Below the pieces are notes generated by a model, which saw only the letters and a program-made list of their open reading frames with translations, ran no database searches and had not been told where the DNA came from. Below are positions 305 through 22,222 of a stretch of 22,222 nt of DNA, in pieces (the first letter of the stretch is position 1; every line of letters starts with the position of its first letter). Source of the DNA: Saccoglossus kowalevskii. Lineage: Eukaryota; Hemichordata; Enteropneusta; Harrimaniidae. The stretch is from contig NW_003109095.1 of the NCBI RefSeq assembly GCF_000003605.2, positions 232,924 through 255,145 of the forward strand, in the 5' to 3' direction. Both the position numbers and the translations under genes were made by a program.

Positions 305-373
305 CTTGTATTATTCTCTGTATCTTTTACTAAAATTAAACATGTGATTCCAGCGTCATGGGCTTTATTATTG
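305..373 (-). CDS. WD40 gene, coding exon 7 (residues 189-211); gene continues left of the window
   Basis: The acceptor is a T-rich tract ending ctcctgatag. The donor is gtaaga. After completing Cys189 the exon encodes NNKAHDAGITCLILVKDTEN and then NT, the first strand of WD repeat 5 starting at His194. It ends with AG of a split codon, so at least one more exon must follow beyond base 1. I searched 1-300 on the minus strand and found no matching continuation. A 73-codon frame across this exon (301-522) is the exon plus read-through of the upstream intron. Confidence 0.9.
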
Positions 374-3300
374 CTATCAGGAGAAAAAAAAAATAATACA
401 ATTAAATAAAATAATGAAATTAATATTTCTGAAGATTTGAATACCAGAAGCAGTAAAGAAAAAAAAAGCAAACAGATGTATTTTAGAGACATAGTCGTTA
501 TCCGGTTTTGGCAAAAATTCAAAATTAAATTGTTAACAGTAAAATAATATTAATCATAATATTGAACTTTCCAAGAACCATTCTCATTGGGTTATTGATA
601 CTACATTCAATCATCAAATGATAACTATGCATTGTTGGGGGTCAATGCACGAAAGGTCAGAGAAGATAGTCCAGAATATCCAGAATAGTCCAAAATATCC
701 AGAATAGTCCAGAATATCAGGAATAGTCCAAAATATCCAGAATAGTCCAGAATATCAAAATTTTGTTGAATTTTGTAAGGATCATTGAAACAACAATTCC
801 ATTATGATTTGTTCACATATGTGTTTTTTTTTTCACTCCATTCTACAATTTCTCCCAACATGTCTGAGAAATTTCTAAAAAAAAGTTTTAATCATTGCAA
901 TTACCAGAAAACTGGAAGGAGTTCACGACGACTTGGATTGGAGACAGAATCCAGACACATTATTTTACCATCATATCTGTACACAGAGAAAGATATATTC
1001 AATATATGCACAAGTAAAACATTTGACAAACATTGATTTTCCCACAATTCAATGTGCTTTTCTTATAAAATCACGAGTAATGTAAAATCTGTATTAGAAA
1101 CCGTGGCTTCTATTAAAATGGTACAATACAACACAGGGGATGCGGCTTCTATTAGAGCATATGAGAAATGATGAATTTTGGATTCTCAATTATTCAAAAA
1201 GAATGGGTGCGACTTCTATTAAAGAATGCAGCTTTTAATACAGATTTTTCAGTAGCAGTTAGACCTGGATGTAACTTGCACTAATTACCACTGGCGACTA
1301 ATTAAAGCTTGGTAATTTCTCATTGTATACTTATTAGCGTCAAAGTCAAAAGTCATCATCTTTTTTTTTATATGAGACCCATGTGACGACCAACATCCCT
1401 TTTACTATACAATAAGAGCATGACATGGTGAACTAGTCTTACATTATGCAAATGTATTTAAATGTCATATATATGAGCCAATCAAACTTGTACCATGAGA
1501 AGTATTAAAACATTCTGTTCATTGATGACTTCATATGCAGCCTGTGTGTAATTCCTTATAGAATTATACAAACCCTGGTGGCTAGATGATCGATAATGCT
1601 TATGTTAACAATTAACCTCTCATTAGCTGACTGTGATGGCTTTAACTGGGTGTTTACTACACATTGTAGTTGTCTTGGACAATTTAAAAATTACATAGAT
1701 TATAGACCAGCACATCACATATTTTCTCTATTATTAGTGAATGCACTTGCGTAAATGTGTCTATGGTAATTCGGTAAGGCATATATAACAATGATCCAAC
1801 CTAATGCAAATTGGCTCATGTGCACTTCCATGGGAGATATACACTTTTAAACAGACCAATATGTATATACATGTAAAATGCAATACATTCAATGAGAATT
1901 TTCATTCAACAATCACCAAATATCACAGTTAGTTGGAATGACCATTAGCATACTCACCCGGCAGAATATATTCGTGATTCGTTACATAGAACACATCGTA
2001 TTATATCAGTATGCTGGGTCTCTTCGCACTCGATTGCCGACTTCAAATCTATAACATGACCACTTTCTTTATCTGTAAAGTAAGACCAGATTCACACTCA
2101 TTAATATTCATGAGCTAATTTAATGAAACTGTCGGTCATTATTGTTCGCAAGCTGATTAATATTCATTAGTCATAATTATTCATGACTCATCATCACAAG
2201 CTCATTAATATTCACAAGCTCATTAATATTCAAGTTTTGGAAATCCAGATTCAGTTTGGCTGTTTATTTTGACACAGCATTCAACTATATTGAATAGAAT
2301 AATGTTTTAAAACATCCTTAATGAAATCTGACATTTCAGTTTTGGTAATTGCTGTATTAAAGCTTTTTTTTAAAATAAACTACAATTAAACTACACATAC
2401 AATACAATAATAGATTTCTAATAAACAACAACTAAATCACACTGAAAATATAGCACAACAATACATTAATTAATTATCATCTTTTCTGTTCTTATTTTGT
2501 AGGTTTTCTGTATGTAATTTAATAACCCGAGTAGACATTGTTTGTTAGTTGTGTTTAAAATGTGTATCAATTTATCTTTGTTGTAATTTTTGAAATTTGG
2601 ATTGGAGAATAGACTTTATAAATCTTGTCTATTTTTCTGTATAGAGATCACACTCAGTGATGAAATGGATTTCATCCTCAATCACGTTACATTTGTCACA
2701 TTTCCTGTCCTGAATTGTTGTTTTTGGTTTTGTGTGTCTACCCACTTCTATGTACAGTTGGTGGCAGCTAATTCTAAATTTGCCCAACAAAAAATATTTA
2801 CGAGTTGGTTATTTGGGGGGGGGGGGGCAAAGTTAGGCTTTGAACACTATATGAAGGGCAAAATATCTCGCGATTCTTTAATGAAATATTGGTGGCCATT
2901 TGTGAAAATAGGTCAGTGAGTGAAACAATCCATATTTTCTTCAAATTTTGTGTTGAGTCTTTGTATTTTTGTGAAAGGTCATATACATGTAATGTATGCA
3001 AGCACTCTCAAGAAGGTTTTGATGGTCATTTGCATATATCTACTTGTCATAAAACGAATCCTCAATTATCAGTGGGGAACCTGAAGGAGATCAGTAATTT
3101 TGGTAATAATCAACTTACTTTCGTCTAATTCATATACTTTCAGGGATGCGTTGAAACCACACACTAATTGATGCCGTTTATAATTCATAGATATCGTGTA
3201 CACAGGTGCACCAAGCTGTAAGCAAAAAAGAACATTTTGAAATAAGTTTGCGAAGGGGAGGTGTTAGATATATAAATACAGTTCCCTTGTTTGAAAAAGA

Positions 3301-6300
3301 AAGATAACAGCCTTTAGGGAAAAATGATACTCACTCACCATTTTCAAATTTTAAATCGAGAAAGAGGATATCTTTTCTGGTCTTATACAGAAATTGTTAT
3401 TGGTTTCGTATTGAGAAAATGTATGTTTTGATTAAAGCATCAGTTATTGTACCGTGACATGAAAAACATTATTAGCTTAAAAATGTCATTTTTATGTCTA
3501 CTGTGGTGCATCTACATTATATTATGTAAGCGAAGCGAAACGAAACGACCACTGACAGAGAGTGTAAAGTACTGTAAAATCTGTATTAGAAACCGCGGCT
3601 TCTATTAAAATGGTACAATGCAATAGAGGGGATGAGGCTTCTATTAGAGCATCTACACATATGAGAAATGACGAATTTTTGGTTCTCAATTATTCAAAAA
3701 AAATGGGTGCGACTTCTATTAGGGATGCGGCTTCTAATACAGATTTTACGGTAATACCCCTTATAATTGTTTTCTTTGATAAGCGCTGTGTAATATTTAC
3801 ACAGTGATGTTTCGCTCTAGTCTGGTGTTACTGGTAGTGGTTGGTAGAGAAAATAACAGTATTTAATAAAGCCATATTGCAAAGGTCCAATATTGACAAG
3901 CTTACAAGTCTTGTTGCTTTTTTGAAAATTTAAATTTTTTTTATTAACAACTAAAAGAATCCTTTAAAATAACAAAAATACGAAATAATATATTGCAAAA
4001 TCTTCAAAATACCAACAACTTGTATCCCCTATATGCACCTGAGTGACATCCACTAAGTTTCTAATCAGTGAATTCACATAATTATCTGATTATCTACGTT
4101 TTTTAGAATACCAAAATTAATCCAATCAGAAATTATAATATTTGCATATTATGCAGATGATGTTTGATAGAAAGAAAACAATCGTTCATTTCATTTTTAT
4201 ATTTTCCATTCACACTTTTATTATTCATTCACTTTACTATAACATTGAGTTGACATTGAAAAGATTAGTCTGCACACTTTCTTGTTGCTTGTAAGTCTAG
4301 GATTGGTACGTACCTCCATTTTGTCATGTACACCTCCTCCTGATGCCCAGGCAATTATAGACCCATCATTAGAAGAAGAAAATAATAACTTAGGTTCTGT
4401 CCTGAAAACAAAAACAAAAACATCGAAAGTTTACAGTTTTATTGAGTACCTCCTGCTAGGCTCCTTATACTATAGGAATAATGCAGCTGATATGACTGTT
4501 TATATTCACATATTAGATACATTGTAGAGGGGTGGCAAGGGTTATTTTCGTTCAACGTAATTGCAATATTTTTTTGTTCGTACAACGTAAATTTGAAGAA
4601 ATCAATTCCGTAATTCTGTAATCACAGGCTAGACGTACAACGTAATCAATCAAATATTTTTTTCGTACACTGTAAAATTGTCTCATTTTTCTCGGTACGT
4701 ACAGGAATTTACATCCAAATAAAAAAAGTCGTAAAGAATAATCCAGGGAAATTACATTTTCGAAACTGTAAAACTACTAGATAACACAATTCACTGCAAT
4801 ATTCAGTTTTCACTGTAAACTGTAAAAACATCTTTTTATTCCATGTAAATTGTAAAAAGCCCTTATTATTTCCCGTAAAACGGTACCAGCTACCCCTCCC
4901 CCCCTTATTGTAATACTGGAAATGCATTAATTATTCACGGGGTTTTAATTTCACTTTTAAGCAAAATCCTTTAAATTAAATCCACATCAACATGTAAAAA
5001 TAACATTAGAACTAAATGTTTTGCAAGAAAATTTATGAACTTAAAACCCAGTGAATATGCTCAAAATATCAAAGTAATGAAATAAAATGCAAGTAAAAAT
5101 AGTCATTTTACAGTATTGGAGGAAGTAAAGACAGTGAAATCTATACGAAAAGTAAAAAGCTGTTTAAGCCAAACAGTAACAACACAATTTAAACAAGTGA
5201 AAATGCAATTATTATGCAAATTAGATAATTAATATGCACATATTTCTATAAAAAAATAATCAGGTATGCACGTAATCTCAGAGCATCTATGTACCAAGTT
5301 TCATTAAAATCTGATAATTGGTTCTTGAACTATCAGTGTAACAGACACACACATAGTAAATGTTTATGAAACTTAGGATTAGTAAAGGGGGTAAGTTACC
5401 GGGGTAGTACACTTATATTAAATTTAATATTAAGTTTAACATACTTTCCACTTTTACTAACCCTAAGCTTTGCAAACTTGATTTAAATTTAATTAAATAT
5501 TAATATAAATTATGAAAAATAGGTTGTAGGTTGTCACTTGGTAGATATGTCTTTACTTGCTAGGTGTAAAGTTAAATGAAAGTAGTCACCACGTTGATAA
5601 AACAAACACACACACACAAAGCACCACCTCCAAGGACTCTCATTGTATATGCTTTGCACCCCAGTAGTAACCATGTTTGCAAACAAGAGTTGAAAACCTG
5701 TCTAAATAGCAATAATACAATTAATTGTCCAAATTCTGAATATAAAATACTTCTAAAGACCAAATATTTCTGTAAACTGAATAATTTCTTCTATCTCATT
5801 ATTTTACAACTACATACACAGTAAATTCATAAGAAAACAACAGGATTCATGCTATACTGCCCTCTATAGTTGAGAATGACATGTTGGATGAGGGCGCACT
5901 GTATTTTGGCTTGCATTGATTCAATACAAACACCTGTAAAGTGATAGAAGTAGAGTGTACTGTAATTGTAACAGAAAACGAAAGTGATACACTCGTTAAT
6001 TATTCACTGGGTTTTGATTTTTCCTTTTTTTTGGAGATACGCGAATTCGATCACTGGTAAGTGTAGTGGTTATTAGATCGTACTAATAACTTATAGACCA
6101 GAGTTCAACCCAACCCTGGAAAGGCTAAATTCACTTGCTGAAATTCATTCACAAATGGATGTGACTTAACTTTAGGTTAGGTTCGCCAGGCCTGCCATTA
6201 TAATAGGTAGATCGTCACAACATAGCCCAGTCACATAGTAATGCAACGTATGTTAGCTCAACAAATGAAACAAATCTAATTTAAATCTATGTGAAAAATT

Positions 6301-9300
6301 AACATTACAATTGATCTTCAGGTCTCTAAATTCCTGGAGACAATGAAGTCAATTGTTTAGATGTCCCAATTGAATGCCCGGGTGCCCTTCAGATTAATCA
6401 AATATTTGTATCACAAGTCAATCACTTCAAGGCATTTTTAGACATTTTTAGCCATGAAATTTATAGGTGTTCTCAGCAGAATACTTCATGCGCTCAAACT
6501 AATTATTAAACTGGAAACAACTGGAGTTTAAAACCCAGTAAATATACACAAAATTTTAAAACAGTGATATTAATTACTAGTGAAAAACAAATGCTGTACA
6601 ATTAAGATACAATGTACAGGTCATAAGATATAATTCGTTCACATGTGCACTTATTTTAGTGCATATCTGTCTACAATTATTTGTTAACAGTTTTTGGTTC
6701 ACTGTTAACTTGTTTTTGAGAAAAAATTGTAAAATAATAAGCATAAAATGCCATTTTAGCAGTGGTTTCCATAGACCACAATGAAAAAACTTTTCCATGA
6801 TAAAAACCCACAAAAAAATATTTGATATATCAAAAAGCATCTTGTAAGACATAATGGTATATCTTTTCTTCACCATGTCACCCAGGCAAATTTTTAGATA
6901 TTGAGATATATTCGTTCCATATATAACAATGGTAAAATGTCCCAAAACAGACAAAACATCATATATACATCGTTTTTTTCTTCGAACCGAATACGATGAC
7001 CCCAGGTTTTTATTCCATTTCCTTTCATCCTCATGATATGAAATAGCAAATATGTACAAATGAAGAAATTGACAACATTTATACTTCTGTGTACATAGCA
7101 TTCAACCTTCAAGAGAAATTTGACAATCCCAGGGAATACCCCATAGAATTGAACAGGACAGAAGCTTACGGTTTATTCAATGAAATGTATATATCAGCAT
7201 GGACAGACAATGACAGAGAAAACATGTAGACAAGTTTCATAAACTGTAGACATTGACATCAATGTAATTTAATACATCACAACAAAATTTCAACATCACC
7301 CAGTTTATGCTGGCATTTAGTGACATTATCATGCTAAACCGAAATCTGGGTGTCTATGGAAACGAACATGGCCCTGTCAGTTTTCTAAATCTGAATCAAT
7401 CAGTGAACTCTCATGGTTACACAGCAAAATCCAGCAGAAAACAAATTCAATGTAGCATAACAATTATTAATGGTTTTCAAGAAGAGTGAAAAGAAACATA
7501 AGCAAAGTAATAGTTGTATTTTAGTAAGACTGGAAGAAGTGAATTCACCTTAATCCAAGTGTTCTTGAAAGGGTAGCTGTCAATCCCTTGGATTACATCA
7601 TGGGACACTAATTTTTATGGACTGGATTATGTACGGCTTTTACACACTGATGTCATACAATGTATGATGGAAGAACCCATGCACAAAGTTGATAAGACAA
7701 ACGTACACACACATGGATGCACTAACCCCCAATATATCAGTCTAATACAAACAGCAACAACACAATTTTTTGTCCATTCTCTGTATATAAAAGACTACTA
7801 CAGACTACTATGGTAAACCGAATAATTTTGTCAATCGCATCATTTTTCAGTTGAGACATAATGCATAAAAGTTATGCAGCAAACACTCAAAGTACAACTA
7901 CACAAGTCTAGTCTACTCATACGAGTAAGAAAATAACAAGATTCACCCTATTCTGCCCTATATATATAGTTGAGAAAGACAGGAGCCAACGCTTGCAAGT
8001 CATATGACAGTAGTGGGTAAAAATCATATCGAGTCCATAAAGTATTTATCATAAACACGTACCTTATAGGGTTCATTAAAAATAAATGAAATTGTTTTTG
8101 AGATGCTGGTGTTTAATTTATATTTGGTCGCACTCACTGCTATTGCAAATCTTTTGAACAATTAAGAACCCCTTCTAAAACCGTGATCACAATGAATGTG
8201 GTTAGACTTAAGCCCTAAATATTATCTGTGATAGATAGCTAGTTATTACTATGTATGAATGCTTTATAAAGGCAAGTTTTACAATACAACTACAGAATCA
8301 AAACAAAATAGCTATGAATTTTATCTCCGGCAACGTGATGTACTAGTATATGGCTAAAACTAGTTATGAATGGGCCCTGCTTTAAATCTATATATGGAAT
8401 AAGTTTGTCCAAATATGGTCAAACAGGGCCAGGATATGCAAATTTATTGCATGGCTCACTCATCAGGTTTCTCGTAGATTTAAAGAAATTTACATGACTG
8501 GGCAATACAAGGTACTAGTATATGATGACATTGTCCATGTCATTTGTTCTACTAGCATGCCAGTCATTTCTAAACTGTGAGAGTGGTTTATAAAGAAGCT
8601 TTCATACCTTAGGATTACACCATTGCATTGTGGGAGATTCTTATCTTAGACTTTACAGAAAACAAACAGCACATGTACAAATCCAAGATTATCCCGATAA
8701 GAAAGCTTTCACCTTCTGACGTTTTAGAGAAAGAAAAATCCTCACAATCAAACAAAGCTCTCAGACAACAATCCACAAAAAGAGTTTGAGAACAATACCA
8801 AATAAACTAAGATTAATGTTAGTTGATTTGTCCAGTAAGTTAAAAATACCATATACTGGCATAACTCGTTTTTGCAGCTCAGCAATGTGACAAAAAATCT
8901 GTCCCGTGTATTACCTCAGGGGTGTTTGTAAGCTGTAAATCAATCTACTTACGTCTGAGTGAAGTTGTTTATTACTTTTAGTGAAAAGATCACAGACAAT
9001 TAAAACCAAGAGTTTAACTTGCATACATGTCGAAGAGCTATATAGATAGCATGGCGTGTTTTCAATGCTTTGCGTTGTCTGTCCATGCGTGTATGGTTTC
9101 ATTGTTTGTCAGAAGACGTACACGCCTTATTTTCAATTGCCTGCACTGATCACCTGGTATAAATTATGAAGTCATTTGTACGGTACGTACACCGAGTTCA
9201 TGCATTCCTATAGGTATTTTGCTTTGGGGCTATTATGTGAAATATTTGGCGGATTAAATTTGTGCAAATCGCTGGAAATGTGTAATAAACATTCAAATTT

Positions 9301-12300
9301 CAACGATTTTTTTGTTATTGAAACTTTTGAATAGTTTTCGAACATGCAAGGATTCACAATGATTGGTTTCTGTGTGGCTGACAAAAATTCTTAATAATAA
9401 CAGGTTATTGCAACGATACTGCAAAGTATACACACAGACAGTATCACAGGAGTATCGACCGACAAGCAGTGGAGGTCGTTGTGACGGCGTACTGTCTGCA
9501 TACTTTGCAGTATTTTCATAATAACCTTATTATTATACATCTTTTTCTTCCAGGAATACATCATGAATCAGTGAACATCTTTGTGTGGAGTTCGGTCAAA
9601 CACTGGGGCAGCCATGTTTGTTTTTATTATTAGAGGACGCTTGTGAGCTTAATCATTTCATATTTGGAATTCGCATTTCCTAATATGGTAGGATGAAAAT
9701 ATGGTCATCAAATTTATTTTCGCACAAGACCTAGGACAAATTTCTATGGAAATGGTGATTTTTTTATTTTATTTACCATTGGTTTTTATATTAAAACCAT
9801 ATCACAAAATTGTGTGGAAAAAATATACATTATGTTTGTGATGAATTATTTGAAAATTTTGATACATACTACCGGGTAGTTATTTTTTATGAAATAATGC
9901 TTCAACATAGATACCCATTTTCCAAAAAAAGTAATGTTTTGCATTTTTTCAAAACAATAACTCATACTAACAAAAACATTTGAAAAGATAATAAAATGTT
10001 CTAATCAATAACTATGTAACACTTGGGAAAAAATTATTATAATTATTTTTTTCACCCCTACTTTACCTTCTAGGCCATGATAAAGCAAAGATTAACAGTT
10101 TTCTTCAGATTGAAAAACAGTATGTATTAACACATTGCCTGACATCATTGTTTTCCCTTTCATTTCAGCCATTTATGTAGGCTTTCACCAGGTTGTATAT
10201 ATAATGCACCGTTTGAAAAATAGTTCTCTGAGGAAACTCGATTAATTTGAATTAAACAATCTGATTCACACTCCTGCTTGGAAATACATTATATTAAATG
10301 ATATAGAACTTTCATTTCTTGAAAAAATTGTCTGTTGATTGCAGCCACTGTAGTTTTCTATTTTTTGCTGCAGAAATATAGGTTCTATAATTTGTGCATT
10401 TTTCTCTATTTTTGATAATTTGATGCGAATAATTAAATAATAAAAAAGAATGAAAACGGTGATATGCATTCTTTGAATAGTTCCAAACCTTATAATGTAA
10501 TGTTGAAAAAAAAATTCAAGTTTATTTAATAAAATTGTAATCGTGTTTTTTCAACTACTAACAGATAAGGACCCCCACCCTCAATATATATATGTTTCTG
10601 ATTGCTGTGCAAGTCAGGAAACAAAAAGATGTGTCTCAATTTCTTTTTTTTTTTGTCAGAAAAACAAATCTGAAAATTAACGAAAAATGCCAGAATCAAA
10701 ATAAAAAGCTTTTAGAAAACAAATTGACAATAAACATTTTGTTTGACCTAATTTGTTCATTAGAGTCCATTACCGAGTATGCAGGATATTCCCTAAAATA
10801 CAACAACTAGCTAAATTGATAACCATTCAGTTAAAAAGCAGATTAAAAATTTAAATTCAGCCAATTCATTCCTTTTCATAAAAAAATAAAAAGAAAGGTT
10901 CAAAGAGGGTTCAAACAAACATAATGAACTGCCCATTGCCACTTGATCTGCCCTCATGTTGTGAAAGAAACAACTTTTTCTAAAATCAGGATGAAGGTAA
11001 TTTCATCCTTCACATTATTCACCTCGGTAAGCCATTTGAATTCTAAGAAAACTTTACAGTTGATAACAACCCCAATTTATTCACAATTATCACAAACAAA
11101 AAGACAGTCAATTTTCATAATGAATTAATAACGATTTAAGGCTGAACAATCAGGGAAGTGCATAACATTGTAACAAGAAACACAAGAAACAACAGGAGAA
11201 TTATCAGTTTTCAAAGACAAACCATTCAATACCAGTTACCATGACAACCACCACAAACTAATGAACCATGTCTATTCAAGATACACGCTTCACCAAAGCG
11301 AATTGAAAACGAGCAATTATAAGGAAAGAGATTTCACCTACCGGATATTCTGTAAAATAGCTAAAAGCTCTTTAAAATGATCAGATTTTAGTATTAAACT
11401 TTCTCTCTGTGCAACAAAAGTGTGGACACCAATGACTGACAAAGTGTTTTTCAATTAACATTTTTCTTATACCACATCACGACAGGTGTTTTGCATAAAT
11501 TGATCATTATTGGTAATTGGGATAGATCCTGCGTGCATGTATTTTGTGAGTACAGTAGGGCATACTGTAAAATACTTTATTTTCGCTTGGAATTAATTTT
11601 TGCTATTTTCGATGACAGGATGATTCAGTGAAAATAAAATCGAGCAAATATACCATTTTTCCTATATTTTATATTCAACTCACCAAGATCAGTGAAAAAT
11701 AATTTTCATACAACATCCAAAAAGTCTTTTCAGCAAAAATTAATTTTAATAGCCCTTCAAGAGTCTCCAACATTGATTTAATTTTATAGTAGGTATAGTA
11801 TTTTTGTCGTAATGGACATTCCTAGGAATTCAATGTCAATGTCACATGGCCACTAAGTTAAGGAGCAGTGGTCATTTCGCTACTGATGTGTGAGATATGG
11901 GTCTTATATTAAGATGGTGACCTTGATTGATGTACAGATCTTTTATGAATGAAAAAAGAAAGTTTTAATTTTTGGCAGTTCCTGGAATGATTGGAAAGCA
12001 ACAATGGATTCTAAGAAGTCAAAGACGGTATTTAGTGTACATTACGACCAGATACTTGCACTCATGCTTGCCATGCATGTGGGCATTTGGTTGTGGGAAA
12101 ATCTCTGTTTTAACTACACAACGAGCACTGGCCTTCAAACCAACCATTAGTGATAGGCTTTTATTGTAGTGATCTTGGAGACCTCAAAAGGGCTCATACC
12201 ACTAATTTAGTTTCCATAGACGAAAATGTTAACATATGACGAGATTGCTATATGAAAATGACGAAGAAAGTTGAAAATATGGCTCAAAAATGGGAAATCA

Positions 12301-15300
12301 ACATGCCAGTAATCAAGCATATGAAAAAAACTAACATGTTGGCCAGCTCAAACTCTTGCAAATCTCAGGTAAACAAGACACACCTACTGTATTTGGATTG
12401 CACCAAGAGAAATCACTGGAAAAACACCAAGATTAGAACATCCATTAACACACAGAATAAACCCACAGGTACACAGCCGCTAAGTAGTAAACAAAAGACC
12501 ACATGTTGGTCTCACCTCTGACCCAGGTGATTACGCCCTCAAACAGGGAGCACCTGAGAAAAATAATATTTAAAAAATTTCATTGGTTCTTGCTAGGCAT
12601 TTAAATTGAGGGCTACGAGCAGCCATTGGTTAATTAGTGGCATGAGACCAAAACATGCATAGATACTACCAATGTTTCCTCTGTCACGATTTCAACTATA
12701 AGCCAAGGGTGGACAAATTCCCCTATTTTTCTCAGGTTGAACTATTACCAAATAATGACACAAATGTATGGGATAATATACTTTACTTTCATTTATAGTA
12801 CTTGTAACTAAATCAAAATACATTTAAATCTGTTTGTAATATTTTATATTTAACTTGTGCCATACATAACACCTCTAAGCCTTATTTTCGCTCAATTTTC
12901 TCAGATTCAGTTGTAGTTTCTCAGTGAAATTTTTTCTTTTGAAAACTTTCTATGCATTTTGTATGCAGAAAAAACATTTCAAGGGGAAAATGGGCAAATT
13001 TTCACAGTATTTTCAAGATTCAAAAAAATTCAAGGGAACAGTGGATACCGAGCGACATTGGTAGCATGAATTTCCACACCTGATCCTGGAGTTCGATACA
13101 TGCCAATCACCAAAAAATATACCTATAGTTAAAGTTTTGCAATGTGTCAGTTTGTACTTGTTGGTCTGGGCAACAGTCAAAATCGCCATCTTTGTTTATA
13201 TGAGACCCATGTTATGCGCATGAATGGTCGGATAACATCCACTCTTTAATTGTTGGTAAATTGTTAACTCACCAATACAAGAAATCAGTGACCCAGCCTT
13301 GGTGTTCATGAGAAGACATCACAGGTAAACTACTCTCCGCTTCCCAAGTTTTTATGAAACCATCTACAAAATAAAAATAAAAATAAGTTGTAATAATATA
13401 ATGACAGGAGCAATTCAACCAATTCTCAAATGATGATAATGTTGACTATATACTGTATTATCACCTGCATAAGGTGTTGTAAAACAGAACAGATTGTAAT
13501 CACATACTTGAAGGTTAACTAGAACCGCAAAGTTTACATACGATCCGATAACTACGAATTGTGGTAAAAACGTTTTTATTTTGGTACACTCATGTGTATG
13601 TTTTTGGATATACTATTTCTCTCTGGAAAATCGGTTTTAAAAAAAAAAAATCACAGTAATTAGAGCGAATATTAGAAACAGCAGAATTGCTATACAGCTC
13701 GCACGAGGCGGAGACGAAAAATTGAAATATGTGGAGTCCACATAATTAGCATACGAGATGCATGCAAGGATATATGTGTGCATTTGGTGTTATTGCAGCA
13801 ATAGTTCCACTGTTAAAACTCCAACGTTTTATTTTTCCGCACTGTGGAAATATGCATATAATAAATATATAACCCCATGATATTTTCTTTTAGGTTGACG
13901 TCAGCAGACGCATGTGATTACTGCCAGAGTATCATTAAAACTCAACTGTTGCTCAAATTGATACAAAACTTTAGTGATAATAAGTCATCTCAGCTGATAC
14001 AATACAAGTCATTGTCTATGACAAATACTGTGGAATACTTTATTTTCGCTGGAATTAATTTTCGCTGAAAAGGCTTTTTGGGCGTTTTGTATGGAATTTA
14101 TTTTCACTGTTTTTTGATGAGTTTAATGTGAAATATAGGAAAAAAAAGTATATTCGCTGGATTTTATTTTCCTGGAATCATCCCTTCAGCGAAAATAGCG
14201 AAAATAAATTCCAAGCGAAAATAAAGTACTAGTATTTTACAGTATGTCCATGTCCTAGTTTTCATTGACTGTTATCATTAGTGTTAAATAATTATATACA
14301 CTCAAGTGACAGACATAATACAAGTTTTTTGTGTGATTCTGCCAATCTGAATCAGATTTTGAAACAGATCATGCATGTGCAAATGTGTTATATTGTATGT
14401 GTAAATTTTGAACGAGTTAGCAATATGGCTCTAAAAACAACATTTGTTAAAAACAGAATCGCCATCAGTCAGCTAATTTTAATCAAATGATAAAAAATAT
14501 GTGCAACAAGAACCCATTATGCTTAATAGGAATTACATGAGTGTTTGTTCGATATGAAGACATGTGTACATGTATGTGTGATGAAATTAATACAGTTACA
14601 GGCACATGGGACCCATATCAATTACGGTGATTTCAAAAATAGAAAAGTGTCTAATAAATGGTTAGACCATTACACTTTATATCTCCCCTCCCCCTGATGA
14701 GTTTCAATCTTTGCTTCAAAGAATTAGCAATATGGCTCCAAAAACAGCATTTGATAAAAAAAAAAAAATGGCCACTAGTCAGCCATTTAGAATCAAATGA
14801 AAAAAATGTGCATCAATGACCCATTATGTTTAATCAAAGACATAGAAAAGATCTTTTCTCTTTGGCTTTATGGATATACCAAGTTTTATTAAAGGGCCAG
14901 GTATACTATAAATACGCTCCTAAACAATGGGGATCATTTCCTTGCTTGTCACAATGTAGTAAGCAGCTCCAGCCAAGCTCCGGTAAAGACATGTTTTCTC
15001 AAACTGACAGGTCAATTATGTTGTGCCAAAGTGGATGCATGTGACTATGAATACCACAGCAGTGACTGTGTGTAGTATTTATGACAATAAATAATGTACG
15101 AGCTGAGATTTTGGCGGATAAAAGTCAAAAACACGAACCGGGGAAAGGGACGTGCTACTAATCTTGAATAATTAACTACTGTCAATCAAAGTCACGTGAT
15201 GTTGGACCGCTGAAACAGGATGCGTCATAGGCTATGCAAATGTTTAACAACACTCATTAGCATAGCCACACCTCCAATTCACACTTGCCCAGGGCAAGTG

Positions 15301-18300
15301 AATTGGGCCTTTAAGCTTTACTTCGAATCAGTATTTTACCAAAATAGAGTAGAAATCCTAGTTATCAATGAAACTCCTTCATACATGGAATGCTTTCCTG
15401 GTCTTTGTCTTCATACATAAGCAATAAGAAATCAAGAGTTCTTTTCTGTCATTCAATGTCAGAAATCCAACAAGCCTTGAGTGGAAGGGGGGTGTGGAGA
15501 TAAAAGGTGGAATAGCACAAATATGCACTTTCAACATAGCAAATAAGGTACAGTTGCTTCAGTGCGTTGGAACAGCATATATGTAGAACACTTTTAATGT
15601 ACACTATATCACTTACATAGAAAGTTCAGAGATCATATTAACAATGGTGGGGACATGTGATCATGGGAAAGTGCATTCCACAGTTTGTATAACCTAGTGG
15701 CATGTAGAGAGTGGAAAACTGCACCTGTACATTAGTGGGCATATTTTACGCCAGTTGAATCAAGCACTGATAGGAGCAGACTGTCCAGTCGGAAGAGACG
15801 GATAATTTAATCAGACAATAGCGTAAGCTGAACAAACAATAGCGCCGTTTTCAAAACAAAATAAATGTCTTTGAAAGGCAAGCAGTGGATATAATGTGCG
15901 TGTGCTGGTTCGGGAAATGTTATTTTCACTTGACAAAACAAAACCAATATTCACCGAGTACCGCAACCATCAACACCTTTTAAAACGGCAAGGTCAAAGG
16001 TCAATCTTTTCACCTTTTACAAAACAAACTGACATAACCCGCAGCTTTTTCCACATTTTTGATAAATTTTTTTTCAACATTTTTGAAATGTTATGTCAAT
16101 TTGGTCCAAAGTTAACAAATAAATTATGTAAAAATATGCAAATATCAAGTTTTCGGTAGGAAATAAATACACCGTTCAAAGGGTTAAACCAATCAGAATG
16201 CAGGTATTATGATATTATTTTCGAAAGTATATTTTTACAAGCGAGAAAAATTGCAACTTATGATTTTAGCAATGAAAATCTACTCTAGGCGCAACAAAGG
16301 CATTCCATTTATCTTCTCAAATATTTATAAACTGCACAGTTCAAACTGAAAGAAGAGGTTTCTAACGGCCATTCGAGTAAAATTGAAACGTTTTCAAATG
16401 ACGTTGATGTGCACTGTGCTTGTTGATTGGCTGGTTTGGTTCAACTAACACTGAAATTTATAAATATTTATGAGGATGAAGATGAAGAAAATGTCTTTGT
16501 TGCACCAAGAGTGTGCAATTTTATAAACATTAATAAACAAAAGTATCCATTGTTATAACGGGCAGATTTTCAATGCAAACTTAGAAAATCGGCATTAGAC
16601 GACCGTCCCGTTATATTTTCAATAAATCATTCTTTCCATATATAATATCGCAGAGAGCAGGAAAAACAGCAAGATTGGAAACTAACAAGTATAAACAAAT
16701 ATATACAAACAAAGCTGACCTATGACCCCTGCCAAAGAGTAATCGAATGATAAACTATTAAACACCCTAGATACTGATATGACCTTTGACCCCACCAGTG
16801 TTACACCGGGGTAACCGATCAATACAATCTCTTGGCAACTTTAAATGGTTTCCATCTGTATTTGTATCTTTTCTAAAACAACAGAAAAAATAAAAGAACA
16901 AAGAGATTTCAGTGGTGATTGTTATGCCAATTCATGAATGTTCGCAATCATAAAATTCAATAGACTGAAAAATGAGCATGCTTTCTATCTCAAGCACCGT
17001 GAAGTATTTCCACCATGTTTATTGACACTTTACACCGACTATCTATTGATAATATTCATATAAATCATTATCGTAACCTTTTGAACACCAAAATGTAATT
17101 GCAACATTTTGAATGTTTTTAAGAACTTTTCTATAATTTCTTCGTTAATTTTGGACCAAATGAACATTATTTCTTATTTGCTGAAGGAGTTAATCAAAAT
17201 TGTTGAAGAATCTGAAATATGGGAAAAAAATTATATTTTGTGTTAAGAGTAGAAAGTAGTCCTTGGCATACAAGGGGATAATTACAATGTGCAATCTTGT
17301 CTTATTATTGTAAAGGGATTAATTATTCACTGAGTTTTAATTTTACTTATTTTGCTGACTGGAAAATGCGCTAAATTATTAAAACCCAGTGAATACTGTA
17401 GAATACTTTATTTTCACTTGGAATTTATTTTCGCTATTTTCGCTGAAGGGATGATTCCGTGAAAATAAAATCCAGCGAATATACTTTTTTTCCTATATTT
17501 CACATGAAACTCATCAAAAATCAGTGAAAATAAATTCCACACAAAACGCCCAAAAAGCCTTTTCAGCGAAAATTAATTCCAGCGAAAATAAAGTATTCCA
17601 TAGTATGTAAAATTTAGCATAGAACACATTATCTAAATGTTAAATCAGTGAAACTTAAACCCACTGAAAATTAGTCAGTTAACAGTATTCAGAGGGAAAT
17701 TAAAACAGAAAATGAAAATATTTTGTTGGTGGTTACTATGTCGTGAGAATTCTATGCCTACCATATAAAGTACTATATAGGGCTTAATTATTCACTGGGT
17801 TTTATTTTTGCTTATTTCGATGATTATTTATTTCTGTTGCAAGCCAGTGAATCTAAAACCTAGCTCTGCAACATAAAATCCACTAAAATTTTAACATGTG
17901 TCAGTGTTTACAGTACAAGTCCCTGTCAATGACATAGTCCCTGTTTGTTTTATAGACGTGAGATATAGAACATACATGTATTGTGTGAAGTTGGAACTTG
18001 ATTGGTCCAGGCATGTATCAGATATGGCTCTGTGGAACTGCATTTGTGAAAACAAGATGGCCACCAGTCAGCCATTTTGGATTTCATGATGACAAATATA
18101 CTTGTGTGTTTATCCGACATGATGACTGATGTATTTGTGATGTTGATCTTGATCGACCCAAGATTTAGCTCAAATGGGAACTAAAAATGAAATTCTTATT
18201 CTGTTGTTTCATCATACTAAAAGATCCGATCTACCGAGTGTCTACTTTTTCTAATTAGTTCATTGACCTTTAATGGCACAGTCATCATACAATGCATATT

Positions 18301-20389
18301 GGAATTTTATTTTTTAAAGGCACAGTCCTTGTACATCGCATATTGAAATTTTATTTTTAAAGGCTCAGTCGTTATACACCGCATATTGGAATTTTATTTT
18401 TAAATGCTCAACCATCACACACTGCATACATGTATTGTTATGTTATACCCGTACTACTGTTTATGTCACATGGAATAAGTTTTGTAAACTACCCAGAATA
18501 AATGATTGTGACATTTTTAGGATGTGTTTACAGTTTCCTAAAAACATTTTTTTTTACACTGGAAGAATATACAATCATTAGCTAATAGGCGATAATAAAA
18601 CATGGGGTCAACGACTTTGTTGTTTAGAAAATTGTTTATTACTTTACAGTCAGTCTTTACTGCGGGGAAAAAGTAAAAATAGAAAAAAAAGCATTGTAAT
18701 TTTTTTGCAACTCTGAATGAGTAGGTGTGTGGAGAACAACATTTTTCAGAAATGAAAATAACAGGTCACATATCTTTTTGAAAGGTATTCACATGTCTGT
18801 GTGCAGTAGAATGTTTTCTCATGTGAAACCACTTCTGCTTGTTTGTGGTGTAAAACTAACCATACTCAAGTACATTCGAACAATTCAAGAAAATATAGAA
18901 ATTTTCTAACATTTTGCACGGAGTTAATGAGTACATATGAAAAATAAATATAAAACATTAAGTTTCTTCCATTTGACATTATGCTCATGCTCATATGAGC
19001 CTACAGGTATACTCACACTAGTAGGGATTGTGTACGTATGATATCATAAAGGAGAATTGAATATCTTTAGTTTCAATGCTGGTGTTCAATAATCTGTATA
19101 CATGTCTGGGGGGGGGGGCTTTAAATCTAGTTAATGTAAAACCATTTAATTTCACTATTTAGACCATATTCACTGAGTTTACGATTTTATCAGGGAAACA
19201 ATGAGTTCTATTGTTCTTTTACATGTTCACAGATATAATTTAGCAGATTTTATTTATTAGTGAAAATAGTGAAATCGAAACCCAGCAAATAATTAATGTA
19301 TGAAAAGCAATCAACTCATATTCAAAATTGATATACTGTTCATTTCAGTGTTTATTTTCAAAACAAATTCAATACACTTCATTATTTCAAGCATTATTAT
19401 ATAGAGCAAGAAACTGCAGATTTTTGTTTTCCTTGGCCTCAGATTTGTGTAGGATTTTATGATCTTGACAAAATTATTATCTAATCAATATGGAACCTTG
19501 ACAAGATGAAGTGATTTGTTTTTTTAAGCAAGGACTTCTTTTGAAATAGCTGAAAAAGAAGAGTAATGTATATTCACTGTTACTCTATAAATCTTACTCG
19601 CACAATGCTGTTGACCTCCCTATACAAAGCTAAAGACAATTCTTGTAATTGTTAAGGTCATGTCAGTTATTCCCTGTCATTGACACCCCCCCTCTTGGTT
19701 TATTGCTTGATCAACCATGCATTAGAGTATGCTATTACTGGTGAAATAGTTACATGTCTTTTTAGTAAATTTGGCTTGATGCACATTTAATGGAATCTTA
19801 ATTTAGCTAAAGTGCCAACAATCTCATTATGAAAATATATTTTATTTTAAATTAATGACATTTTGAATTAGCAAAATTACAGATTCTAGTTCAAATAACA
19901 TACATGTATATGCTAAAAAGATATATTTCACAGTACTTTTTACAAATATTTTTCGACAGTATAAATTTGTCAACAGTATTCTAGGCTTTAAAATACTCAG
20001 ATAGCTTTAAAATTTCTGGGAAGTCTTTTACAGTTTGAGTTAGATACAATAGCAGATCATAAATTCAATATCTGAAAATAGCTAGCCCAACAAAATACCT
20101 CTCTCTGAAAACTCTTGTATAATTCAAAAATCTAATTTTTAATACAGAACAAATCATAAAATAATTATAGAAAAAATGTAAAACTGAAACAATAGAGACC
20201 TTTATTTTTTTCACTCACCATATTATATCTTCAAATAATAATTAAGTCAAAAAATTCTATTCAATAATGGCAAAAGCCGAAAAAAAGGGGAAAGCTACTC
20301 AATTAAATCTGCTCGCTTAAACACATGAATATCTTTAAAAATAAATTCTGTTGAGAGATATGAAGAAATCAAAACTATATATATATATA

Positions 20390-20425
<36 letters not shown>

Positions 20426-21345
20426 TATATATAATATATATATGTAGTATATATAGTACCCCCCAATTTCTAATGGTCAATCCCTCAGGGGAGTACCATT
20501 AGCAACAATGCAGAAGGGGATGGTAGGAAAACTGCAAATATTTTTTTTTATAGGCTTTGTATTAAGGATTGAGCTAATTTTTTTTTCACGATGATGTTAC
20601 AAGAAAACATTTTATTATTCCTATATCAAATGTGTGTTTGATTTTTTTTTCCTTCCGATTTTTTTTTAATGAAATTTGCCATCGAATCCCACACCCCGAA
20701 TTTCTTAGTCTACCTTTTGAGTATAAAATCTCATATGTTGATATCGTCAACTTGAAGTTCAAGTGTGACGTACCTCACAACGGAATGTCAACTGCCGGTG
20801 TTACAAAGCACAGTCCCTATAGAGGGACTGTGTACAAAGTAAACTAAAAAAAAACAAAAACTAAAACGAACAAATACTCAGCAATCATTGCGGCCACATG
20901 CGTAATTTAGAAGTACTGTCGCGGCTGGGGTAACCACTATTGTGTTGAAGTGATATTCGTGTCAACAACGACTAGCAACTTTCCCTGGAACTTTTCACCC
21001 GTGTTTCTGACTGAGGTTGAGCGAAGTTCCGCGCGAAAAAAAAAATCTAAACTTATACGACGACTTTCTCAATAATGGTTTCCCACTTTGCAAACCGATT
21101 GCGACTGGTTCCAGGAGTCGCCAAATAATTTCAGACGTTCGCTAACAGTGGAGCACACGCTTAGTAGTATTTATAGTTTATGGCTAAACCAAACTCGTCG
21201 AATCAGTGTTGACAGGGCCCCCACTGACTCGCATTCACGTACCTTCGCACCCAGCAAGAATTTCACGTCTCAGCGGATGGTACCCCAATGCCGTGATTGC
21301 TCTGGAATGGGTATCCTTAATCGTGTACTGCTTTTCCATAGCCAT
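305..21345 (-). CDS. WD40-repeat protein, N-terminal part, seven exons, 3' end outside window
   Basis: Joined minus-strand exons: 21345-21243, 13363-13273, 4401-4314, 3215-3119, 2072-1958, 976-905, 373-305. They give 635 nt (211 codons plus 2 nt) with no stop. Every junction keeps frame (exon-end phases 1, 2, 0, 1, 2, 2, 2) and has GT donors and AG acceptors. WD40-like units seen: 1, residues 13-42 (from HSRAITALGYHP, ending IKTWE); 2, about 55-83 (HQGWVTDFLYW, then SNDGSIIAW); 3, about 95-124 (LGAPVYTIS, then VYEL); 4, about 147-174 (HTDIIRCVLC, then SAGYDG); 5 begins at 194 (HDAGITCLIL) and is cut by the window edge. WD40 units fold into a beta-propeller used as a protein-binding scaffold; that role is family knowledge, and the partner is unknown. 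There is no signal peptide or membrane segment, so a cytosolic protein is likely. I do not recognise an orthologue. The repeats lack the classical GH pair and end in WE, AW or YE rather than WD. Confidence 0.9.
374..904 (-). other. Intron 6 (531 bp)
   Basis: Bounded by the exon 6 donor (gtaatt) and the exon 7 acceptor (gatag). It contains the 19-bp minisatellite at 668-756. The rest is AT-rich with no visible feature. Confidence 0.85.
668..756. repeat. Minisatellite, about 19-bp unit
   Basis: About 4.6 tandem copies of a unit close to CCAGAATAGTCCAAAATAT, with A/G variation at one position and a 'cagg' variant in one copy. Period and unit were read by eye. Confidence 0.9.
905..976 (-). CDS. 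WD40 gene, coding exon 6 (residues 165-188)
   Basis: The acceptor is tttctctgtgtacag. The donor is gtaatt, somewhat weaker than the others. After completing Gly165 the exon encodes YDGKIMCLDS, which closes WD repeat 4. A loop, VSNPSRRELLPVF, follows. The final TG is completed by the C of exon 7 to Cys189. The 72-bp length and both phases fit their neighbours. Confidence 0.9.
1080..1252. mobile_element. MITE-like element, family A copy 1
   Basis: Imperfect terminal inverted repeats (left ATGTAAAATCTGTATTAGAA; right ending cagatttttcag) lie between TA dinucleotides at 1078-1079 and 1253-1254. This pattern is typical of Tc1/mariner-type non-autonomous elements. It is about 88-90% alike by eye to 3572-3751, in the same orientation, but lacks an 8-bp piece after 'gagcat'. 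No coding capacity. The family name is unknown to me. Confidence 0.75.
1340..1410. repeat. Dispersed repeat fragment shared with 13173-13250
   Basis: The core 'tatatgagacccatgt' followed by '..catccc/act..' matches 13197-13245. A related inverted piece lies at about 11896-11925. These are probably fragments of one old dispersed repeat with no visible ends. Confidence 0.5.
1958..2072 (-). CDS. WD40 gene, coding exon 5 (residues 127-164)
   Basis: The acceptor is ctttacag and the donor gtgagta. The exon encodes KESGHVIDLK, then an acidic linker (SAIECEETQ), then HTDIIRCVLCNESRIYSA, the first half of WD repeat 4 (His start, two beta strands). It ends with GG, completed to Gly165 by the A that starts exon 6. 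At 115 bp it is the longest exon found. The AT-rich degenerate 'attaatattca' repeats begin about 25 bp upstream of its acceptor. Confidence 0.92.
2073..3118 (-). other. Intron 4 (1,046 bp)
   Basis: It contains the AT-rich degenerate repeats at 2096-2232 and a 13-base G run at 2815-2827. The 109-codon plus frame (2590-2919) and the minus frame (2798-3001) cross the homopolymer, have no domain features, and lie wholly inside this intron. Confidence 0.85.
2096..2232. repeat. Degenerate 'caagctcattaatattca' repeats
   Basis: Two near-perfect adjacent 18-bp units (about 2197-2232) are preceded by looser copies ('cactcattaatattcatg', 'gcaagctgattaatattcat'). The array lies just upstream of the exon 5 acceptor within intron 4. 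Confidence 0.65.
3119..3215 (-). CDS. WD40 gene, coding exon 4 (residues 95-126)
   Basis: The acceptor is ttttttgcttacag and the donor gtaagt. In phase 0 the exon encodes LGAPVYTISMNYKRHQLVCG and then FNASLKVYELDE. This is WD repeat 3, with strand pattern 'a-V-t-i-s ... qLVcGf-n-slkVYe', ending in Tyr-Glu where classical repeats have Trp-Asp. The last A joins AT of exon 5 to make Asn127. The intron to exon 3 is 1,098 bp and holds a family A element. Confidence 0.92.
3216..4313 (-). other. Intron 3 (1,098 bp)
   Basis: Bounded by gtacgt and cttacag. It contains the family A element at 3572-3751. The rest is AT-rich with no other feature I can support. Confidence 0.85.
3572..3751. mobile_element. 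MITE-like element, family A copy 2 (180 bp)
   Basis: The ends are CTGTAAAATCTGTATTAGAA and its near-complement TTCTAATACAGATTTTACGG, flanked by TA at 3570-3571 and 3752-3753. Inside are four copies of a short motif close to GCGGCTTCTATTAGA (about 3595, 3632, 3709, 3727). This copy looks more intact than copy 1. The plus-strand frame at 3610-3807 is a translation of the element, not a gene. Confidence 0.8.
4314..4401 (-). CDS. WD40 gene, coding exon 3 (residues 65-94)
   Basis: The acceptor is tttttgttttcag and the donor gtacgt. The first G completes Trp65. The exon then encodes TEPKLLFSSSNDGSIIAW (residues 66-83), a clear second WD strand with the Asn-Asp-Gly turn and a Trp end. The linker ASGGGVHDKME follows. 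It ends in phase 0. The upstream pyrimidine-rich tract on the minus strand is the run of A and G on the plus strand at about 4403-4423. A plus-strand frame at 4282-4527 overlaps this exon and is its antisense shadow. Confidence 0.92.
4527..4906. mobile_element. Inverted-end element built of short 'CGTACAACGTAA'-like units
   Basis: The left end reads aggggtggcaagggtta and the right end complements to aggggtagctggtaccgt, giving an imperfect terminal inverted repeat. The interior holds about ten loose units such as ttcgtacaacgtaa, gacgtacaacgtaatc, cactgtaaactgtaaaaa and ccatgtaaattgtaaaaa. ATTGTA occurs next to both ends (4519-4525 region and about 4908-4914) and may be part of a target duplication. 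The ends suggest a hAT-like non-autonomous element, but this is uncertain. Confidence 0.5.
4927..5114. mobile_element. Inverted-repeat element, family C copy 1
   Basis: It starts ttaattattcacggggtttt and carries the complementary ttaaaacccagtgaat at about 5040-5056. It is followed by a tail ending attttacagta. The same start and core recur at 5996, 17318, 17784 and 19160. Exact ends are uncertain. Confidence 0.6.
5369..5472. repeat. Inverted repeat with AT-rich loop
   Basis: The arms aaacttaggattagtaaa (5369-5387) and tttactaaccctaagctt (about 5454-5471) are near-complements around an AT-rich middle. Possibly a small hairpin element; no target duplication is evident. Confidence 0.6.
5575..5890. 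repeat. Diverged repeated block E, copy 1
   Basis: It shares a colinear set of blocks with 7660-7985: gttgataaaacaaac plus a short CA run, agcaataatacaatt, ttgtccaaattctgaatata, ctgaataattt, and a final 'aacaggattcatgctatactgccctc'-like stretch ending tagttgagaatgac. Same orientation. The frames on both strands here (5572-5824) are chance. Confidence 0.65.
5996..6556. mobile_element. Family C element, possibly split by a SINE-like insert
   Basis: The left half, ttaattattcactgggtttt, starts at 5996. A right half with tttaaaacccagtaaata lies at about 6527-6544. The two are about 500 bp apart instead of about 100 bp, and the SINE-like sequence at 6051 lies between them. A single interrupted copy is inferred; two unrelated fragments is the alternative. 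Confidence 0.4.
6051..6230 (+). mobile_element. Possible tRNA-derived SINE head
   Basis: A box A-like stretch (gtgtagtggttattag, 6061-6076) is followed about 25 bp later by a box B-like stretch (agttcaaccc, 6102-6111), then aaccctgg. The spacing resembles a tRNA-type RNA polymerase III promoter, as in SINEs. The unrelated body runs to about 6230 with no clear A-rich tail. It does not fold into a complete tRNA, so it is not called a tRNA gene. Confidence 0.4.
7660..7985. repeat. Diverged repeated block E, copy 2
   Basis: Colinear with 5575-5890, about 2.1 kb away in the same orientation, but with small insertions (for example the segment around 7850-7920). It ends in attctgccctatatatatag and gttgagaaagacagg. 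The two copies are clearly related but old. Confidence 0.65.
9391..9535. mobile_element. Long hairpin (MITE-like) element
   Basis: The left arm starts ttaataataacaggttat and contains atactgcaaagtat and acagacagta. The right arm carries the complements tactgtctgcatactttgca and ends ataaccttattatta. Arms are about 50-60 bp around a GC-richer centre of about 45 bp (cgaccgacaagcagtggagg). No protein-coding capacity; the target duplication is unclear. Confidence 0.7.
11565..11752. mobile_element. Family B element, copy 1, right end lost
   Basis: It begins after TA (11563-11564) with CTGTAAAATACTTTATTTTC. It follows the same internal order as 17396-17603 (tgattcagtgaaaataaaat, then tttttcctatatttta, then aaaaagtcttttcagc) until about 11752, where the right terminal repeat is missing. 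Confidence 0.7.
12501..12658. repeat. Inverted repeat with 'acatgttggtctca' arms
   Basis: The arms acatgttggtctca (12501-12514) and tgagaccaaaacatg (12643-12657) are imperfect complements. Inner pieces (gattacgccctcaaa; aattgagggctacgagc) also pair partly. The GC content of the left part is higher than its surroundings. Probably a small hairpin element. Confidence 0.5.
13173..13250. repeat. Dispersed repeat fragment shared with 1340-1410
   Basis: It carries agtcaaaatcgccatcttt, then ttatatgagacccatgt and an 'aacatcc' end like the copy in intron 5. It lies just beside the exon 2 donor (13272) within intron 2. Confidence 0.5.
13273..13363 (-). CDS. WD40 gene, coding exon 2 (residues 35-64)
   Basis: The acceptor is a T-rich tract ending ttttgtag. 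The donor is gtgagt. Starting in phase 1, the exon reads D-GFIKTWEAE, which closes WD repeat 1. It continues with HEHQGWVTDFLY, which opens repeat 2. The final TG is completed to Trp (TGG) by the G that starts exon 3. Both flanking introns are very long (7,879 and 8,871 bp), so this 91-bp exon sits alone in 16.7 kb of repeat-rich DNA. The joined protein is continuous in sense with exons 1 and 3, which makes chance very unlikely. Confidence 0.92.
13965..14520. mobile_element. Dispersed repeat D, copy 1, interrupted by family B
   Basis: The 5' part (acaagtcattgtctatgac) matches 17912-17931 of copy 3. It is interrupted at TA by the family B element 14028-14242 and resumes with tatgtccatgtcctagtttt. 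The 3' part carries caatatggctctaaaaaca and gccatcagtcagc, shared with copies 2 and 3. Outer ends are uncertain. Confidence 0.5.
14028..14242. mobile_element. Family B element, copy 2 (215 bp), nested in repeat D
   Basis: TA at 14026-14027 and 14243-14244 flank CTGTGGAATACTTTATTTTC and its near-complement ending agtattttacag. The interior carries repeated 'ttttcgctg / cagcgaaaa' pieces. In inverted orientation it matches 17396-17603. No coding capacity; TA duplication suggests Tc1/mariner-type mobilisation. Confidence 0.8.
14717..14835. repeat. Dispersed repeat D, copy 2 (3' part)
   Basis: Shares gaattagcaatatggctcc, aaaacagcatttg, an A run, ggccactagtcagccattt and atgacccattatg with copy 1 at about 14412-14515. 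Confidence 0.6.
14893..15310. mobile_element. TTAA-flanked element (418 bp)
   Basis: It starts AGGGCCAGG after TTAA (14889-14892) and ends TTGGGCCT before TTAA (15311-15314), so both the ends and the four-base flanks mirror each other. TTAA duplication is the hallmark of piggyBac-type transposition. The right end contains a stem (ccaattcacacttgccc / agggcaagtgaattgg, 15272-15306) and a ggctatgc...gcatagcc pair (15230-15266). GC is higher than the surroundings. No open frame worth calling. Confidence 0.55.
15991..16003. promoter_or_regulatory. DR1-type nuclear receptor motif
   Basis: AGGTCAAAGGTCA is an exact direct repeat of AGGTCA with a one-base spacer, the DR1 consensus bound by HNF4/RXR-class receptors. 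Function is inferred only from sequence; it lies in intron 1 about 5.2 kb downstream of the start codon. Confidence 0.45.
16552..16615. repeat. Short inverted repeat with TATAACGGG ends
   Basis: ttataacggg at the left and cccgttata at the right bracket about 45 bp containing agattttc / gaaaatc pieces. Possibly a remnant MITE; too short to classify. Confidence 0.45.
16716..16729. promoter_or_regulatory. DR1-type motif (inverted)
   Basis: TGACCTATGACCCC complements to GGGGTCATAGGTCA, a DR1 with one G-for-A change in the first half-site. Confidence 0.35.
16780..16793. promoter_or_regulatory. DR1-type motif (inverted)
   Basis: TGACCTTTGACCCC complements to GGGGTCAAAGGTCA, a common strong DR1 variant. 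It lies 64 bp from the site at 16716 in the same orientation. Confidence 0.4.
17318..17690. mobile_element. Family C element, copy 3, split by a family B insertion
   Basis: The left part, from attaattattcactgagttt through ttaaaacccagtgaa, runs to the TA at 17394. The family B element (17396-17603) follows. The C sequence resumes at 17606 with tgtaaaatttagca and later aaacttaaacccactgaa. Joining the two sides across TA gives 'cccagtgaatatg', as in the uninterrupted copy at about 5048-5060. Confidence 0.6.
17396..17603. mobile_element. Family B element, copy 3 (208 bp), nested in family C
   Basis: TA at 17394-17395 and 17604-17605 flank CTGTAGAATACTTTATTTTC and its near-complement ending aagtattccatag. 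The interior is the inverted equivalent of 14028-14242, including the aacgcccaaaaagccttttc segment. Confidence 0.8.
17784..17893. mobile_element. Family C element, copy 4
   Basis: Starts ttaattattcactgggtttt and carries a partly complementary aagccagtgaatctaaaacc near 17840. Ends are degenerate. It lies about 100 bp beyond copy 3. Confidence 0.5.
17905..18110. repeat. Dispersed repeat D, copy 3
   Basis: Carries acaagtccctgtcaatgac at the left and gatatggctctgtggaac, gatggccaccagtcagccat and tttcatgatgacaaatat at the right. It is uninterrupted where copy 1 has the family B insert. The 63-codon frame here is a repeat translation. Confidence 0.55.
18275..18429. repeat. Tandem repeat, 43-44 bp unit, three and a half copies
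   Basis: Units start at 18275, 18319 and 18362, each with the pattern 'ggcacagtc..tacaNcgcatattg' followed by gaaattttatttttaaa. A partial fourth unit (tgctcaaccatcacacactg) starts at 18405. Confidence 0.85.
19139..19300. mobile_element. Family C-like inverted repeat, degenerate
   Basis: The left arm has aatttcactatttagacc and attcactgagttta; the right arm has ttagtgaaaatagtgaaat and aaacccagcaaataattaat. The arms are partial complements. It is related to family C by the 'cactgagttt / aaacccag' ends. Confidence 0.5.
20376..20457. repeat. TA microsatellite
   Basis: Nearly continuous (TA)n with a few interruptions (cattg, gtag). The 61-codon minus frame across it (Ile/Tyr repeats) is an artefact of the repeat. 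Confidence 0.95.
20809..20832. repeat. Perfect 10-bp stem hairpin
   Basis: cacagtccct and agggactgtg flank the four-base loop atag. It is within intron 1, on the edge of the CpG-richer promoter region. It may be the tip of a degraded hairpin element; there is no T run after it. Confidence 0.6.
21243..21345 (-). CDS. WD40 gene, coding exon 1 (start codon, residues 1-34)
   Basis: The start ATG is at 21345-21343 in a good context (GCCAAGATGG). An in-frame TAG lies 12 codons upstream at 21384-21382, which argues against a longer N-terminus. A second in-frame ATG is codon 3. The exon encodes HSRAITALGYHPLRREIL followed by AGCE, the first half of WD repeat 1. It ends in phase 1 at a strong donor (GAAG, then gtacgt). 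The next exon supplies AT to make Asp, completing the common 'ED-G' turn between WD strands. Open frames on the opposite strand here (21088-21354 and 21206-21412) are shadows. Confidence 0.92.
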
Positions 21346-21350
21346 CTTGG
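21340..21350 (-). promoter_or_regulatory. YY1-like motif overlapping the start codon
   Basis: The minus strand reads CCAAGATGGCT, matching the YY1 core AAGATGGC with the ATG being the start codon itself. This arrangement is known at many animal start codons and just downstream of start sites. Confidence 0.5.
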
Positions 21351-21428
21351 CTGATTCTTGTGGCACAGACCGTCTATGTGACTATTTCCTCTACTGTTTG
21401 ACGCTCGACTGAGCTCAACGAGTTCACG

Positions 21429-21446
21429 CTTCCGCCATCTTGCCCT
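21429..21446 (-). promoter_or_regulatory. YY1-like motif with adjacent ETS-like core
   Basis: The minus strand reads GGGCAAGATGGCGGAAGC. CAAGATGGCGG is close to the full YY1 consensus and GCGGAAG resembles an ETS core. An ATG here opens only Met-Ala-Glu-Ala then a stop, so it could be a four-codon upstream frame if transcribed. Confidence 0.5.
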
Positions 21447-21540
21447 TGGTCACTATGGAGATTTGTAACCCGACGCGCACCAATTTAGGAATGGGACGTT
21501 GTTGGGGGCGCTATACGTCTTGGACGGTGTCCTGATTATT

Positions 21541-22222
21541 TGGAGGAAACGTCACAAAATTAAATTCAACATTTAGAATACATTATAACGTTTTAATTAG
21601 TATTAATTAGTCTTAATTAACCTTATGACTGACTTTTCGCGTGTGCGTGTTTGTCCGTAAACAATATTCCAAACCTCACATTTCTGAATATGGTGTCACC
21701 GATTCAAAATTAATATTATGAGTAAAAATCAGTTGTATCAAATAAATAAATCCAAATATATTGATATAGTTTGGTTATATATTGAATAAATAAATTTACA
21801 ACTTGGATCCGTGTAAAACTGTGTTTTTAATTTCATGTTTCCTTCACACTGACTCTAGTTTACAAGTCACGGTATTTATTTATTTGTCTGTTTATCTACT
21901 TATTTACACACCGTGACACTGGAACTGTTACTACAACATTTGACACACCGTGTTAAGGTAGAGATGCAGGTTGGGAGACTATATTTCTAATTGCCTCTAA
22001 TTACTGTAATTACATGAGTAAAATATACTTTTTACCAATCAAGTTATATATCATTCGAAAGAGTTTTATTTAAACTTTTGAGTTTTATGGTTTACAATAA
22101 TGTACTATGATACCATATTAAGTGGTGTTGATTTTGGGTTAAAATCATGCATTTTAGTGAAAGTGCACTTAAAACTATTTAACTTTTGAATGCATACCCT
22201 GATTTTAATTTAAGAACACTTA
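21541..22222. other. AT-rich upstream flank, no gene seen
   Basis: It holds loose TTAATTAGT repeats (about 21593-21625) and an ATTT-rich run (about 21870-21905). I see no exon pattern for a divergent gene on the plus strand. Confidence 0.6.

Follow-up and report, generated by a model that had tools for sequence, protein, structure and literature searches.

The window, by which we mean the whole stretch of 22,222 nucleotides that was analysed, very probably holds the 5′ part of a nuclear animal gene, spliced and ordinary in kind, that encodes a WD40 propeller protein and continues beyond base 1; that the WD40 gene is real is almost certain. In line with a preliminary description of this DNA, which had proposed seven minus-strand segments with AG and GT borders, all seven were recovered in place over the span 305-21345 (Table 1), none of them longer than 115 bp. 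Joined, they give 635 nt or 211 residues without a stop, the phases are compatible at every join of the chain, and the sense continues through the junctions as they had been named (E-D-G, FLY-W-T, DE-N-K, SA-G-Y, VF-C-N). The six introns measure 7879, 8871, 1098, 1046, 981 and 531 nt, the first two agreeing with the roughly 7.9 and 8.9 kb described before. Every exon is followed by a GT donor (7/7), and each of exons 2-7 is preceded by an AG acceptor after a T-rich stretch (6/6). The donors all match GTRAGT at five or six of six positions, a level reached by 137 of the 1304 minus-strand GTs in the window. The chain thus has GT-AG introns, compatible phases, an open joined frame and an initiator methionine, as a spliced nuclear gene should.

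Table 1. Features placed on the window (nt, nucleotides)
Feature	Position	Strand	Remarks
Putative promoter / 5′ untranslated region	21346-22000	minus	candidate from CpG content
Coding exon 1	21243-21345	minus	103 nt; ATG at 21345; donor GTACGT
Coding exon 2	13273-13363	minus	91 nt; donor GTGAGT; WD repeat 1 (residues 11-41) spans exon 1-2 junction
Coding exon 3	4314-4401	minus	88 nt; donor GTACGT; two WD40 stretches when exons 1-3 are joined
Coding exon 4	3119-3215	minus	97 nt; donor GTAAGT; repeat 3 by eye
Coding exon 5	1958-2072	minus	115 nt; donor GTGAGT; most of repeat 4; WD40 stretch in exons 4-7 joined
Coding exon 6	905-976	minus	72 nt; donor GTAATT; end of repeat 4
Coding exon 7	305-373	minus	69 nt; donor GTAAGA, exits leftward; repeat 5 start by eye

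The protein search that the preliminary description had called for bore out its reading. The joined 211 residues match the Pfam WD40 family (PF00400) in three stretches with an E-value of 1.1e-13 and 51.4 bits, above the curated cut-off of 27, which places the product among WD40 repeat proteins. The more detailed claim of WD repeats 1-4 and the start of a fifth stands in part: the three stretches are found by Pfam at E ≤ 1, while repeat 3 and the beginning of repeat 5 were recognised by eye only. Importantly, the match needs the exon joins, because none of the seven single exon peptides (taken without split residues) matches WD40, one giving a weak PD40 match (0.075), and because one scrambled exon order halves the score to 25.0 bits, at which a WD40 match is still seen (E 2.6e-5). 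Exons 1-3 joined score 35.9 bits. Exons 4-7 joined score 21.7, below the cut-off, and this weakness on their own is what would be expected if the two groups were parts of two different genes wrongly joined. We consider such a misjoin very improbable, given that both groups lie on the same strand, that intron 3 is just 1098 nt long, that the phase fits at the exon 3-4 junction, and that the Pfam model PF25173 aligns right over this junction (residues 11-123, junction at 94/95).

A motif-seeking reader could also have assembled unrelated open segments by chance. Open AG-GT candidates of 60-120 nt are plentiful in the window, 800 on the minus strand once the real exons are taken out and 1083 on the plus strand (counted together with their phase), so that chains of them can be made freely. 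To this the Pfam E-value is one answer, and random chains are another. A small WD40 profile was built from three designed repeats and two found in this genome. Under it the real chain reaches 12.2 bits, whereas 20,000 random phase-compatible AG-GT chains drawn on the minus strand, without the real exons, peak at 3.0 bits and a further 20,000 on the plus strand peak at 7.0 bits; none of the 40,000 attains the real score. We therefore give hardly any credence to a chance assembly. When all 5040 exon orders were compared, the true order tied for the top score with 23 others, so that this comparison mainly backs part of the joins, not the complete order; the score itself was only 7.2 bits, since G had been put in place of the split residues. 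Taken together, the open frame, the Pfam match, the dependence on joins and the random chains uphold a minus-strand WD40 gene with seven coding exons in the window.

What does not hold is that these seven exons make up the gene. Exon 7 stops two bases into a codon at its donor and the propeller is incomplete, hence the window carries the 5′ part of a longer gene. Of ten contig stretches taken to the left of the window and four to the right, ten consist wholly of N (nine left, one right), two are N in part and two are free of N. A WD-pattern scan for exon 8 over positions 140000-233329 of the contig, which are mostly N, gave no match.

At the other end, the start of exon 1 is well supported. 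Its open segment has an in-frame TAG with 12 residues between it and the first methionine, and around its ATG position -3 is A and position +4 is G; the exon 1 ATG is the probable translation start. A further non-coding exon may lie upstream. The half-kb bin 21001-21500 (GC 0.474) has 31 CpG, the highest count among the 44 bins, and CpG observed/expected is 1.11 there and 1.09 in the following bin; four half-kb bins outside 21001-22000 are also at 0.98 or above. From these CpG counts, 21346-22000 is a probable promoter and 5′ untranslated region. Transcription would then start in the CpG-rich stretch near 21.35-22 kb and run right to left, the pre-mRNA including the long introns 1 and 2 as well as four shorter ones and extending left past base 1. 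Removal of the GT-AG introns would join the exons into a message, and in its protein WD40 repeats would begin almost at the N-terminus. The repeats would close into a beta-propeller, its blade number being a prediction, and by analogy with other WD40 proteins the propeller may act as a scaffold for protein-protein contacts.

Since only the 5′ part is in view, a formerly working WD40 gene with damage outside the window, that is, an old pseudogene, has to be considered. All seven exons, however, are open, with canonical borders and fitting phases, and a second locus to serve as the working copy was not found in the searchable genome. We searched the assembly of 572,110,611 bases in 4830 contigs, in which N stretches cannot match, with the protein; the matches at E ≤ 1e-3 (all 11 candidates scored) were seven in number and every one overlaps these exons. 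As all genome matches are the gene's own exons, no retrocopy or close copy is seen in the searchable part. We thus regard a pseudogene as improbable and a working gene as the better reading of the same exons. Pattern scans elsewhere picked out 5 stretches in viral contigs and 27 in prokaryote genomes that fit the pattern, none confirmed by tblastn.

The remainder of the window was screened as well. The preliminary description had stated that there is no long open reading frame. Taken literally this fails, as the longest, on the minus strand at 6577-7101, encodes 174 aa, and no segment in 200 Markov windows was longer than 173; in substance it stands, as this frame lies inside a dispersed repeat, with at least 42 further genome pieces of 68-92% identity among the 40 candidates scored out of 270. 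We rejected the frame as a gene because its DNA is this repeat; its translation has no Pfam match at E ≤ 0.1. Ten open segments, chosen from the 24 longest among 598 with 24 codons or more, were compared with Pfam and none had a match above cut-off. The sole matches among them fall at 12240-12518, to DUF725 (E 0.0022, 18.4 bits, cut-off 22) and Glyco_hydro_101 (E 0.008, 16 bits, cut-off 25). ARAGORN found no tRNA in the window, and no Rfam family reached its gathering score there. Other repeats include an inverted pair at 14025-14228 and 17404-17606, whose arms (122 and 88 nt) are complementary at 97%; this pair, to which a copy near 11557-11686 is related, looks like a palindromic interspersed element. 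Two copies of another interspersed element, 93-94% identical, lie at 1076-1221 and 3568-3721, and tandem repeats at 666-758 (19/38 bp), 18269-18428 (43 bp) and 20376-20455 (a TA run).

In the same assembly we came upon a separate contig, C4830, whose 17,037 bases are a mitochondrial genome of animal type with COX1 on the minus strand, which identifies the host as an animal. Its plus-strand frames are presumably ATP6, COX3, ND3, ND4L, ND4, cytochrome b, ND2, ND1 and COX2, and one minus-strand frame we take to be ND6, so that COX1 and this putative ND6 are opposite in strand to the other protein genes read on it. A 623-codon frame is a candidate for ND5 by its length and place. ARAGORN reports six tRNAs on this contig, and the gene order strikes us as presumably deuterostome-like. 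At 16425-16876, two open frames 191 nt apart have nearly the same translation, which suggests a repeat.

How ordinary is the window gene in its own genome? Searching the assembly for WD40 exon by exon gave at least 114 matches (150 of 346 candidates scored). The open frames around the window gene's exons have 45-82 codons, and among the 114 matches listed, 38 have an enclosing frame no longer than 82 codons; for 66 it is no longer than 115 codons, and for 31 it has at least 245. The window's contig (C358, of which the window is 232924-255145) is absent from these 114 (150 of 346 candidates scored), so that an exon-by-exon search misses the gene. Ordinary eukaryotic gene finders are designed for split genes. 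The earlier portrayal of the gene as hidden is therefore apt for methods that list open reading frames or search exon by exon, but goes too far beyond them. WD40 genes split by introns are frequent in this genome. In other marine invertebrates, exons and introns average 203 and 1705 bp for a bay scallop (PMC7090048) and 193 and 1319 bp for a sea cucumber (PMC5638244); the exons of the window gene (69-115) fall below these exon averages, and introns 1 and 2 are above the intron averages. A further paper describes long first introns as a general feature of eukaryotes (PMC2518113); the longest intron of the window gene is the second, not the first. In kind, the gene looks ordinary, an animal WD40 gene split by long introns. 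It is a clean example of how an exon-by-exon domain search can miss WD40 repeats cut by introns and of how a spliced reading recovers the gene, with slight importance outside the annotation of this genome.

Among the best 60 of 491 matches in a PDB search, we found designed or generic propellers, headed by the designed Ika8 (1.5e-20) and Tako8 (6.6e-15), and within the same 60 the best natural matches were LIS1 (PAF acetylhydrolase IB beta subunit; E 2.1e-13) and PWP2 (E 5.1e-13). Their best stretches cover only residues 29-83 and 7-83 of the 211 (55 and 77 residues); the similarity looks like generic repeat likeness and not orthology. Similarly, the Pfam propeller models of WDR3, WDR55 and WDR90/POC16 align in part (E 2.6e-11, 3.3e-10 and 7.8e-9), while the N-terminal part tested scores 44, 39.9 and 35.6 bits against curated cut-offs for membership of 154, 200 and 60. 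Among the papers listed in literature searches on WD40 terms, none could be tied to this protein. Tentatively, and with more doubt than conviction, the gene could belong to a WD40 subfamily without a solved or functionally characterised member, be single copy here and encode a taxon-restricted scaffold. With WD40 repeat proteins as a whole (PF00400), the window gene shares its consecutive WD-type repeats; it differs in that about four and a half of them lie in the window and the remainder of the propeller, which when closed usually has seven blades in WD40 proteins, would lie outside.
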